A stretch of DNA of 22,328 nt from positions 1-22,328 of the IMG/VR virus record IMGVR_UViG_3300024264_000179, one strand, 5' to 3'. Shown here piece by piece: positions 2,506-21,223 of this stretch (its first letter is position 1; each line of letters starts with the position of its first letter). This DNA is from a virus. The notes below the pieces were generated by a model. The model searched no databases and was not told where the DNA came from. It saw only the letters and a list, made by a program, of their open reading frames with translations. Position numbers and translations under genes: made by a program.

Positions 2506-2519
2506 AAATAAAGGTTATG
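2506..2519 (+). repeat. Shared leader/start sequence, copy 2
   Basis: AAATAAAGGTTATG, identical to 2243-2256, with the ATG at 2517. The protein-coding sequences that follow are unrelated, so the identity concerns transcription or translation start signals rather than gene duplication. Confidence 0.55.
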
Positions 2520-3029
2520 GTAAATTTAACAAGTAATTCAATTAAAGGAATAAACAATTCCGAAATAGCAAAAAAAGAGAATAACGATTGTTTTGTAAGA
2601 GCATTAGCTGCTGCTACTAACATGGATTATGATACTACTCATCAAGAGGTAAAAGAACAGTTTGGTAGAGTAAGTAAGAAAGGAGTTGAGAATCTTATGA
2701 TAATCGGTCAAATGCTTAATGCTGAGACTAGTGGTTTAGTTATAGGCGATAAGAGATTTAAAGTAAACGTGTTAGGTAAGTCCAGAACTCATAACACATA
2801 TAAGTTATATGGAGAGCATATTCAACGTAAAAAGACGGTTAAGTCTTTTATCAAAGATAATCCTAAAGGTAACTTTGTATTAACTGTAAGTAAGCATGCT
2901 TTAGCTATAGTAGATGGAAAGCTTATAGATAATAAAGGAGAAGAATTTAGACCTACTCGTAAAGTAGATGGAGCTTATAAGATTACTAAGCCTGAGTCAA
3001 AGAATGTACAATTAAGTTTATTCGAATAA
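2517..3029 (+). CDS. Predicted papain-like cysteine protease with C-terminal clamp-type motif
   Basis: The N-terminal motif N23-D24-C25-F-V-R-A-L-A opens a helix, as in papain-like and C39-like cysteine peptidases, making C25 the likely nucleophile. GNFVLTVSKHALAIVDGKLID at 118-138 (a long strand, H127, then a strand ending in DG) supplies the usual His half of the dyad, with D133 or D138 as helper. The 170-aa length suits a minimal domain. The last six residues are Q165-L-S-L-F-E170, matching the bacterial sliding-clamp binding consensus QL(S/D)LF exactly. T4 late-transcription factors also touch the clamp through C-terminal peptides. Hence it may be brought to the host or phage clamp. It has its own promoter and joins the next gene by TAATG. 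Fold probable; protease activity and clamp binding are inferred. Confidence 0.6.
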   Translation: MVNLTSNSIKGINNSEIAKKENNDCFVRALAAATNMDYDTTHQEVKEQFGRVSKKGVENLMIIGQMLNAETSGLVIGDKRFKVNVLGKSRTHNTYKLYGEHIQRKKTVKSFIKDNPKGNFVLTVSKHALAIVDGKLIDNKGEEFRPTRKVDGAYKITKPESKNVQLSLFE

Positions 3030-3298
3030 TGGAGTCATATTCAAAGTCTTCCGATATAACTCAGACTAGAGCTTTGCTCCTAGAAAGACTACTACCTAAA
3101 TATCCATATAGTGTACACGATACAGTCAATAATGATATACACTTCAGAACTGATGTAGATGGACAACAAGTAGAATTAATTATCTCTCTATATAGTACTT
3201 TAGGTGTAGTACAAGCCGATGGTTATGATGAATTAACCGATAGGGTGGGAAAGGAAATACAAAAGGAAGTAGATGATATATACTTACACTATGTTTAG
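3029..3298 (+). CDS. Unknown small protein, 89 aa
   Basis: Not recognised. It is an 89-residue acidic protein with a helical N-terminus (about 10-25), a strand-rich middle (DIHFRTDVDGQQVELIISLYS, in two parts around 35-57) and a helical, acidic C-terminus ending DDIYLHYV. No signal, membrane span or catalytic motif. Its ATG shares one base with the preceding stop codon (TAATG), so it should be translated by coupling with the protease-like gene and may act with it. Its last codons overlap the start of the lipoprotein gene by eight bases. Confidence 0.7.
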   Translation: MESYSKSSDITQTRALLLERLLPKYPYSVHDTVNNDIHFRTDVDGQQVELIISLYSTLGVVQADGYDELTDRVGKEIQKEVDDIYLHYV

Positions 3299-18091: not shown

Positions 18092-19153
18092 ATGAGTGCT
18101 TACAAGCAATTAAACCGACAAGATGTATATGTATCGGACTATCAAGCTCAAAAGTCTTGGAGAGCGTCAGGTAGTCTGGTATCAAACTATGGGTTAGAAA
18201 CACTTCGAGGTTTCTCAGGTTCTACTCCAGGTTATCCATACCCTAGTGATTATAGAAATAATCGTTATGAAAAATTAGTATACAATAGTGTACGACAAAA
18301 CTATTTAGCACTATCTAGTAGAGACTTATTACCAGATGCTTCAAGTAGTCACTCTAATGGAGATATTTACTATACAGGTTCTTTTGATGTAAGTTTTCAA
18401 TCAACTCTTACTTTATCTGAATCAAGAAAAGACACTACAGAGGTTGGAGTAATATCAATACCTAAAGATGTATACGGAACAAAAATAGTACCTGGAACGT
18501 TTGTTGCAGAACCTATTTTCGAAACTCAAGACAAGTTCAACACAGATGGTTATGTCTCTGATAAATTTTCAGGCGTTAATCAATATATAGAAAACATTCA
18601 GTATTGGTATAAATCTTCACCTGTTGATACTGGTAGTTACGTTACAAACGAAGGTACCTATGTAGATGAAGTAACCCCTGGGGAGTACATCACTGCAAGC
18701 TTTGACCATCAAAGACCTGAAATAATTGACGACAGTCAAGGTAGGTTAATACTATCAGGAGCAGGAGAACCATTTGCTTTACCAGAAAGATATGTAGGTG
18801 AAATAATATACAATCAAGGTAACGCAATAATAACAGACCCAGTTGTAGCTAGATATTTTTCTACTTACACAAGGATGAACGTTCAATGGAAATCAAACCT
18901 ACCTATTTATACATATAACGTTCACTGTACTGTAAAAGAGTCTGAACTAAACCATACCTTTAACCCAACTGCCTTAACTGGGTCAGATAACACGGTAAAA
19001 GGTAACATAACTGGAAGTGAGTTTAGACCTTATATAACCAGTATAGGACTTTATAATGAAGCTAATGAATTAATAGCAGTTGCAAAAACAAACAAACCGA
19101 TACCTAAATCAGAAAATGTAGATATGACGTTTGTAATTAAAATTGATGTATAA
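18092..19153 (+). CDS. Tail structural protein, second of a tandem paralogous pair
   Basis: It is 353 aa. It shares with its upstream neighbour the N-terminal YK...QDV.VS pattern and a C-terminal domain (about 282-353) containing ESELNHTFNPTALTGSD, YITSIGLYNEANELIAVAK and a final strand FVIKIDV. The central part differs completely: Tyr/Ser-rich (RNNRYEKLVYNSVRQNYLALSS is one recognisable stretch, split around 56-77), with many aromatic turns. The pair therefore looks like an old duplication with conserved ends and a diverged middle, as expected for proteins that dock at one place and present different surfaces. An overlapping ATG at 18088 is in another frame and opens nothing. TAATG couples it to the first fibre gene. 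Confidence 0.7.
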   Translation: MSAYKQLNRQDVYVSDYQAQKSWRASGSLVSNYGLETLRGFSGSTPGYPYPSDYRNNRYEKLVYNSVRQNYLALSSRDLLPDASSSHSNGDIYYTGSFDVSFQSTLTLSESRKDTTEVGVISIPKDVYGTKIVPGTFVAEPIFETQDKFNTDGYVSDKFSGVNQYIENIQYWYKSSPVDTGSYVTNEGTYVDEVTPGEYITASFDHQRPEIIDDSQGRLILSGAGEPFALPERYVGEIIYNQGNAIITDPVVARYFSTYTRMNVQWKSNLPIYTYNVHCTVKESELNHTFNPTALTGSDNTVKGNITGSEFRPYITSIGLYNEANELIAVAKTNKPIPKSENVDMTFVIKIDV

Positions 19154-19803
19154 TGCCTAAGTCAACAATAACGTTTAGAGCTAATAAAGGAGAAGCATTG
19201 ACTTATTCTGAAATGGATAAGAATTTTGGTTCTTTTTACTATTCAAGTTCTTTATCCAATAATGGACAAAATTTAGTACTCTACCATACGAGTAGTCAAA
19301 ACGTACCAATCAATTCCGGTTCTGTATCTTATAACCTTATAGAAGGACTTCAAAACGCAGGTTCGGATTTAAGAGTTGCTTTATTTAGCGGCTCATCAAC
19401 AGTTGAAACCAGAGGAGGTTTTATTTGTGATACAAGCGGTAGTGTTGGAATAAAAGTAAATGAAAACACAGCACCGTTATCATATGCATTAGATGTATCA
19501 GGTAGTATTAGAGCTACAGGCACAGTACTACAGTCATCTGATGAAAGATTAAAAGAAAATATTATTCCAATAGATAACGCAGTAGATAGAGTAAATGCAA
19601 TTGAAGGTGTTTATTTTAATTGGAAAGACAAAGAAGAAAGACAAGCAGGAGTTTTAGCTCAACAAGTACAAAAAGTATTGCCAGAAGTTGTTTCTGAAGA
19701 TAAAAATGGCTATCTTAATGTAGACTATGGAGGTATTGTACCTTTACTACTTGAAGCAATAAAAGAGCTAGAGTCCAGAATAACATACTTAGAAAAGAAT
19801 TAA
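19153..19803 (+). CDS. Short tail fibre with peptidase S74 chaperone domain
   Basis: It is 216 aa. The N-terminus ITFRANKGEALTYSEMDKNF and FYYSSS (6-33) matches the next fibre's N-terminus and is probably the docking segment. A short shaft follows (SGSVGIKVNENT, ALDVSGSIRATGT). From about 128 there is the intramolecular chaperone: S129-D130-E-R-L-K134-E-N-I, with the Ser-Lys pair used for self-cleavage in S74 proteins, then YFNWKD, AGVLAQQVQKVLPEVV, VDYGGIVPLLLEAIKELE and a terminal coiled coil. S74 domains fold the trimeric fibre and are then cut off. The shaft is short, so this is likely a small or accessory fibre beside the longer one downstream. Confidence 0.85.
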   Translation: MPKSTITFRANKGEALTYSEMDKNFGSFYYSSSLSNNGQNLVLYHTSSQNVPINSGSVSYNLIEGLQNAGSDLRVALFSGSSTVETRGGFICDTSGSVGIKVNENTAPLSYALDVSGSIRATGTVLQSSDERLKENIIPIDNAVDRVNAIEGVYFNWKDKEERQAGVLAQQVQKVLPEVVSEDKNGYLNVDYGGIVPLLLEAIKELESRITYLEKN

Positions 19804-19804
19804 G

Positions 19805-21223
19805 ATGGCTATTACGTTTAGAGGCACAAAAGGATCACCACTTACTCACGATGAGTTAGATCAGAATTTTAGAGAGTTCTATTATAGTTCTTCTTATATT
19901 GGAGAAACTACTAGACCCTATGGTGTGCAACTACATAGAAGTAAGTCACTTGATAATGACGAAGTACTTTACTTTCCAACAGCAGTAGGAGAACAATATT
20001 ATATTCAGATTAAATCTGGATCAAATAACGTTTCATCTTCTTTTCTTACAGCATCTAGTAATTTCAAATACGATTTTGATCACCACCATTTAAGTGTATC
20101 TGGTTCTGGTCAAATGTCGGGAGACTTAGTAGTGTTAGGTACCGTTACTGCTCAAGAATTTAAATCTGAATTAATTAGTTCTTCTATACTATTTGATTCT
20201 GGTTCAACACTCTTCGGAAATACAGCAGACGATACCCATACATTTACAGGTAGTGTAAAAGTGTCTAATGGTATTACAGGTTCATTATTATCAACTAATG
20301 GAGTTTTATCTGGTTCAATTCAAATAGCTAGTGACATATCAGGTTCATCAACAGCACTTAGTTCTTCTTTAGCAGTTGATATAGCTGTTAACTCTCAAGC
20401 TTCATCTTCATTAGCAAGTAGAGTTACTGCTAACTCATCATCGATTGAAACAAACTCTACCAGTATAGCAACCTTAACTGCACAAACATCATCATATTTG
20501 TCTAATACTACCGACACATTATCAGGTAGTTTAACAGTAACCGGTACTATTACTGCACAAGAGTTTAACACTGAATATGTTACATCATCAGTAATATTTG
20601 AATCTGGTTCAACAGCATTTGGTAATTCATCCGACGATGTTCATACATTTACCGGCTCAGTAAACATTTCAGGTAGTACTACAGTACAAAACTTACAAGC
20701 AGATGTAATTAATGCAACAACAATTAATGCAACTGTATCAGGTAGTATAGATCAAGCAGTCACTGCATCATTTTCTACCACATCTGTTTCAGCTTCAAAT
20801 GCAGCAACAGCCTCGACGGTTAACTTTAACGGAGGGTTAATAACAACATCAGACGTACAGTTTGATAGTTTTGGAGTAGGAGTAGCAGCAACAGGTACAA
20901 CAGGAGAGATAGTAGCAACAGGAGACATTACTGCCTACTATTCTTCAGATGAAAGATTAAAGGACAACATTACTCCTTTAAGTAATGCATTAGATAAAAT
21001 AAATCAAATAGGAGGATATGAATTTGATTGGAATAGCAATTCTAGCCATAGCGGTCACGATGTTGGTGTTATCGCTCAAGAAATCGAAAAAGTGCTGCCA
21101 GAAGTAGTAGCAAATAGAGATACAGGCTATAAAGCAGTACGTTATGAAAAAATTGTCGCGTTACTTATACAAGCGATTAAAGAGCAACAGTTACAGATAG
21201 ATCAGCTTAAAAGCAAGATCTAG
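19805..21223 (+). CDS. Long tail fibre with peptidase S74 chaperone domain and internal repeats
   Basis: It is 472 aa. The docking segment ITFRGTKGSPLTHDELDQNF and FYYSSS (3-30) parallels the preceding fibre. The shaft (about 85-370) is rich in Ser/Thr/Gly and includes two 40-residue repeats (112-151 and 247-286, 27 of 40 identical), each starting GT.TAQEF and ending DD.HTFTGSV. A Ser/Ala/Thr coiled-coil-like spacer (about 195-235) separates them. The chaperone begins near 379 with S381-D382-E-R-L-K386-D-N-I, then YEFDWN, GVIAQEIEKVLPEVV, KAVRYEKIVALLIQAIKEQQ and a C-terminal coiled coil. It should be a trimeric host-recognition fibre that self-cleaves after folding. One base separates it from the previous gene. 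Confidence 0.88.
   Translation: MAITFRGTKGSPLTHDELDQNFREFYYSSSYIGETTRPYGVQLHRSKSLDNDEVLYFPTAVGEQYYIQIKSGSNNVSSSFLTASSNFKYDFDHHHLSVSGSGQMSGDLVVLGTVTAQEFKSELISSSILFDSGSTLFGNTADDTHTFTGSVKVSNGITGSLLSTNGVLSGSIQIASDISGSSTALSSSLAVDIAVNSQASSSLASRVTANSSSIETNSTSIATLTAQTSSYLSNTTDTLSGSLTVTGTITAQEFNTEYVTSSVIFESGSTAFGNSSDDVHTFTGSVNISGSTTVQNLQADVINATTINATVSGSIDQAVTASFSTTSVSASNAATASTVNFNGGLITTSDVQFDSFGVGVAATGTTGEIVATGDITAYYSSDERLKDNITPLSNALDKINQIGGYEFDWNSNSSHSGHDVGVIAQEIEKVLPEVVANRDTGYKAVRYEKIVALLIQAIKEQQLQIDQLKSKI
20138..20257 (+). repeat. Fibre shaft repeat, copy 1
   Basis: This 120-base segment codes residues 112-151 of the long fibre (GTVTAQEFKSELISSS ... DDTHTFTGSV). It matches 20543-20662 at 27 of 40 residues, with conserved TAQEF, FxSGSTxFGN and HTFTGSV. 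Preceding residues (SGxLxVxG) also match, so the full unit is a little longer. Confidence 0.8.
20543..20662 (+). repeat. Fibre shaft repeat, copy 2
   Basis: This 120-base segment codes residues 247-286 of the long fibre (GTITAQEFNTEYVTSS ... DDVHTFTGSV). It is 135 codons downstream of copy 1. The DNA has drifted more than the protein, so the duplication is old and the residues are under selection. Confidence 0.8.

Follow-up and report, generated by a model that had tools for sequence, protein, structure and literature searches.

The 22,328-nucleotide window analyzed here encodes a 170-residue protein of the phrog_3754 family that we read, with somewhat better than even confidence, as a small cysteine hydrolase of the phage, probably papain-like in fold, with a disordered C-terminal tail that would occupy the client pocket of the host sliding clamp, DnaN. 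Enzymes of this kind, with the tail kept, occur in many marine phages. We infer binding, catalysis, and substrate as follows. During infection, the bacterial-type clamp-binding tail would dock in the client pocket of host DnaN, bringing the hydrolase to DNA-loaded clamps and so to the nearby protein that it would act on. The most likely substrate would be a protein that belongs to the host replisome or is bound to the clamp, and the loss of which would favor phage replication.

The coding sequence lies at positions 2517 to 3029 on the plus strand, as do the codons and segments of this gene given below, and begins with ATG; an A+T-rich stretch, TATAATATTTAAATAAAGGTTATG (2496–2519), reaches into the start codon and resembles a promoter or leader, as judged from the sequence only. 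The product matched the phrog_3754 profile with an E value of 1.2e-23 over residues 14 to 155, which form the core, and all 36 of the 36 aligned family members matched the same profile. Within the core, Cys25 (codon TGT, 2589–2591), the predicted nucleophile, stands at the start of helix 25–34, and His127 (codon CAT, 2895–2897), the predicted general base, opens strand 127–132. Asp138-Asn139 (2928–2933, with the Asp138 codon GAT at 2928–2930), located 11 and 12 residues after the histidine, offers a candidate third catalytic residue. A variable linker (residues 159–164, 2991–3008) leads from the core to the QLSLFE tail (3009–3026), and the C-terminal end reads ...KPESKNVQLSLFE. Reading of the frame thus bears out both the Cys25/His127 arrangement and the terminal QLSLFE described in the original prediction.

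In the window, the gene sits in an accessory region that borders tail and baseplate genes and also holds unrelated small genes. Upstream lies a 2OG-Fe(II) oxygenase-like gene (1641–2192; PF13759, E value 1.1e-8), and the start codon of an 89-residue ORF (3029–3298) shares the final base of the stop codon of the hydrolase; this ORF (cluster c26) was found only beside close relatives. Two further proteins (19153–21223) carry C-terminal SSDERLKENI-type stretches that, from their residues alone, look like self-cleaving S74 tail-fiber chaperone domains.

Cys25, His127, and Asp138 were invariant in 14 close relatives, and the cysteine and histidine were also invariant in a 36-sequence alignment reaching down to approximately 30% identity. 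The Cys, His, Asn/Asp order of papain-like (clan CA) peptidases is present and conserved, with Asp138 replaced by glycine in one subfamily. An AF2 model of the protein showed a compact core (mean pLDDT 82.5) in which Cys25 starts a helix, His127 starts a strand, and Asp138 ends the next strand; a second model, of a divergent member, had the same topology and a floppy tail, both models having a pLDDT of 82 to 83. Papain-like proteases such as the viral tegument deubiquitinases, C39 peptidases, and the torovirus papain-like protease likewise place the cysteine at the start of a helix, the histidine on a strand, and Asp or Asn after it, but they show no sequence match to the hydrolase and weak structural scores. 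In Foldseek searches, phage homologs and other phage proteins of unknown function matched strongly, a C39 peptidase and the torovirus protease weakly. Against the PDB, the top two hits were viral tegument deubiquitinases at nonsignificant scores (best E value 0.37), and the divergent-member model gave an equally nonsignificant best E value of 0.12, with unrelated proteins leading and viral deubiquitinases at ranks 2 and 7. Sequence searches of the core against Pfam, NCBIfam, PADLOC, and the PDB returned no meaningful match; the best named match, GRDA selenoprotein A (E value 0.07), fell below its cutoff and was dismissed. The HExxH zinc motif of SprT/SPRTN proteases was not found in the 170-residue protein, nor was any bacterial homolog found in the first genome scan. 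The earlier assignment as a papain-like protease is plausible from the order of secondary structure, the invariant Cys and His, and the weak fold matches, but found no confirmation in sequence matches to Pfam, NCBIfam, or the PDB; we regard the core as probably papain-like in its predicted fold.

To follow the tail through the family, relatives were taken from two scans of viral contigs, which gave 16 and then 52, and a later scan aimed at the divergent branch provided 41 newly read distinct relatives. Across 39 distinct relatives, the first tail column was Gln in 38 and the second Leu in 38, the third held any polar residue, the fourth was Leu in 37, and the fifth was Phe in 31 (Trp in five, Asn in two, and Leu in one), so that positions 1, 2, 4, and 5 are conserved through synonymous codon change. 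In these 39 sequences, the Leu at position 2 is spelled by five codons and the Gln by two, the Gln stands 10 to 15 residues from the TRKV/GRTV block of the core, and the linker is scrambled while Q-L-x-L-F stays. A motif kept behind a scrambled linker, with varied codons and spacing, is what a short linear motif under selection looks like. The background is low: the 440,135 positions of 2,404 distinct ORFs from related phage DNA contained QLxLF 30 times, with 23 occurrences in the hydrolase family, two at the N terminus of a MazG-like protein, and five elsewhere, giving approximately 1e-5 per position and less than 1e-4 per ORF for a terminal match. The tail was modeled as disordered, with pLDDT dropping from residue 161 onward to approximately 54 over residues 161 to 170.

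Among the 41 relatives of the later scan, 25 carry the tail and one further ends in QLSLI; the remainder fall almost entirely within a subfamily in which Gly replaces Asp at His+11. Conservation of the tail in homologs, on which the original prediction turned, is accordingly found both in the 39 relatives and in these 25, across diverged linkers. Its description of the motif as perfect applies to the protein encoded at 2517–3029, but several relatives depart from the consensus (QLQLWG, QLKFNF, QLEFNF, QLRLL, MLDLF, and QQTLFA) and the tail is absent from some branches. Other members of phrog_3754, a family of unknown function that includes a Pseudomonas phage PAK_P1 protein and M5.1 gp114, annotated as a peptidase, share the DC...H...D core. 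Unlike the protein studied here, the seven named-phage relatives (PAK_P1, M5.1, 16Q, UAVern, Y1-MI, Curvibacter, and Limnohabitans) possess the core and no QLxLF tail, and the tail is absent from the relatives in Pseudomonas, Curvibacter, and Limnohabitans phages as well as from a "GN" subfamily. The core can therefore work without the clamp. In 80 distinct sequences, two rows of which were read by eye, Asp at His+11 went with a tail in 60 of 61 cases and Gly with its absence in all 19; we considered this link as a sign of joint function and set it aside, since it follows clades and is not independent evidence. The tail-less subfamily with Gly was seen in L049, L051–L053, L357, L361, and others. 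A tree of the cores requires two changes of tail state, indicating that the tail is old within the clade that bears it and was either gained twice or lost.

A 2024 review gives the clamp-binding motif as Q-phi-x-[LM]-[FL] or Q-phi-x-[LM]-x-[FL], names QLxLF and QLxLxF as the best binders of the clamp pocket, cites a phage-display set whose most abundant clamp binder has QLELDF as its core, and reports that Trp at position 5 weakens an E. coli clamp peptide (PMC11139829). QLSLF at an exposed, disordered C terminus matches this client motif, as do most tails of the family; QLQLWG is a weaker fit, and QLKFNF and QLEFNF come close to the six-residue form except for Phe at position 4. The baseplate protein of the window is 55% identical to that of Flavobacterium phage immuto, which makes a flavobacterial host likely. 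RNase HII proteins encoded in genomes of the order to which a Flavobacteriia MAG belongs frequently terminate in QLELF, QLNLFD, QLSLFD, or QLSIFK; of the host DinB proteins, one type terminates in GGQLTLDF and another is tail-less. When eight MAGs of the likely host group were searched at the DNA level for patterns of QLxLFx tails, most hits were out-of-frame noise and a single one was a genuine RNase HII. Since the RNase HII and DinB proteins of the likely host group end alike, the phage tail is, by its motif, written in the same code as the clamp clients of the likely host. Clamp clients such as Pol IV/DinB, Pol II, and the RNase HII of the likely host likewise present the five- or six-residue peptide at a disordered terminus, although they are cellular polymerases and nucleases, whereas the phage protein is a predicted cysteine hydrolase. 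Separately, immuto-like FolE (94% in one case) was observed in bacterial MAG contigs L219–L237, some labeled Pelagibacter or Euryarchaeota, which are probably phage sequence binned into MAGs.

The docking partner could in principle be a clamp of the phage or of the host. No T4-type clamp family scored above the Pfam cutoff in 20 relatives, and no DnaN-type clamp did so in 21 records including the isolate immuto; many of the contigs are fragments, and such a search is blind to genes too diverged for Pfam or lying outside them. Neither two relatives of approximately 170 kb nor immuto yielded a clamp gene, and all three encode family-A polymerases. On these grounds, the phages appear to lack a clamp gene, and the partner of the tail is most likely host DnaN. 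The suggestion that the protease might instead process a late-transcription factor at a phage clamp is left unsupported and was set aside, as no clamp gene was found in these records. The clamp tether itself is supported as a conserved motif on a tail modeled as disordered, from which binding is predicted.

The motif also occurs on other phage proteins. MGKQLSLF starts a MazG-like NTP pyrophosphohydrolase (PF01503) in two large relatives, and genes for MazG-like proteins with an N-terminal clamp motif are found in many marine phage contigs (L064:1900–2424, minus strand; L079:11855–12382, plus strand; L139–L218), where the N termini read QLSLF, QLKLF, QLNLF, or a QLKLDF-type sequence. In 63 related contigs, the N terminus carried the five-residue motif in 55 and the six-residue form in seven (such as QLKLDF, QLELDF, or QLTFNF); the immuto homolog has no such N-terminal extension. 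A member of the hydrolase family was seen in four of the 17 large contigs on which a MazG-like gene lies, many contigs being fragments. In a freshwater relative (contig G017), a dTMP-kinase-like protein (L133:1493–2092, plus strand) ends in KQLSMFSHE, and the same phage has a hydrolase family member tailed with QLDLFANC. One large relative encodes a 282-residue protein starting MPCTIPPSQLGLF with a near-terminal QLxLF (L073:11746–12594 and L112:8136–8984), possibly by chance. The termini of phage polymerases showed no clamp motif. Taken together, we tentatively propose, with rather less than even confidence, that clamp-lacking marine Flavobacteriia phages put a host clamp-docking peptide on the papain-like hydrolase, on the MazG-like NTP pyrophosphohydrolase, and in one freshwater relative on the dTMP-kinase-like protein, forming a tool-belt on host DnaN that would act on proteins and nucleotides at the fork.

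An attack of the hydrolase on the host replisome, as originally proposed, is possible, and between a target there and one at phage forks we lean moderately to host takeover; the motif-bearing MazG-like and kinase-like proteins are just as compatible with work at phage forks that borrow the host clamp. In that alternative, which we hold to be unlikely though the strongest of the competitors, the replisome of the phage would operate jointly with the host clamp, and the hydrolase tethered there would remove protein roadblocks or process a replication protein of the phage. It draws on the motif shared with the two nucleotide enzymes, and on neighbors in several relatives, where a RecA/DnaB-like ATPase lies near the hydrolase gene and a small SprT-like HEYxHYLQ protein near the family gene (L024:7524–7913 and L054:6076–6477), but the polymerase termini without the motif and the tail and baseplate setting in the window speak against it. 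The departures from consensus in some relatives, together with clamp binding being a prediction, would also suit a tail with a non-clamp job, such as self-association or occupying its own active site, that merely resembles the motif; this is improbable given that position 3 is free, that five- and six-residue forms both occur as in clamp clients, and that the same motif appears at the opposite end of the unrelated MazG-like protein. Slightly less probable still is a clamp blocker in which the core is a mere carrier for a tail that competes against host Pol III at the clamp pocket: QLxLF is among the best pocket-binding peptides and phage Twort Gp168 is a host clamp inhibitor, though one that binds the DNA channel and not the client pocket (PMC11139829), but the Cys and His invariant in 36 sequences and the core kept by tail-less relatives indicate that the core is selected for itself.

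The favored reading, a hydrolase docked in the client pocket of host DnaN, would resemble Gp168 in being a phage protein aimed at the host clamp, with a different site of action. Eukaryotic SPRTN is a cellular metalloprotease tethered to PCNA through a PIP box; the predicted tethered hydrolase would follow the same logic, a short motif holding a protease to a sliding clamp, with no sequence relation between the two. The original prediction had knowledge of no phage protein pairing a papain-like protease with a clamp motif, and none was found described in the open-access literature searched. To our knowledge, no phage hydrolase has been described as tethered to the host replication clamp via the client pocket. 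If true, this would be the first such clamp-tethered phage hydrolase, and part of phrog_3754 would gain a cellular address. Should the tool-belt proposal also be true, abundant marine phages without a clamp gene would use the host clamp as an enzyme platform, and phage effectors might be found by their terminal docking motifs.
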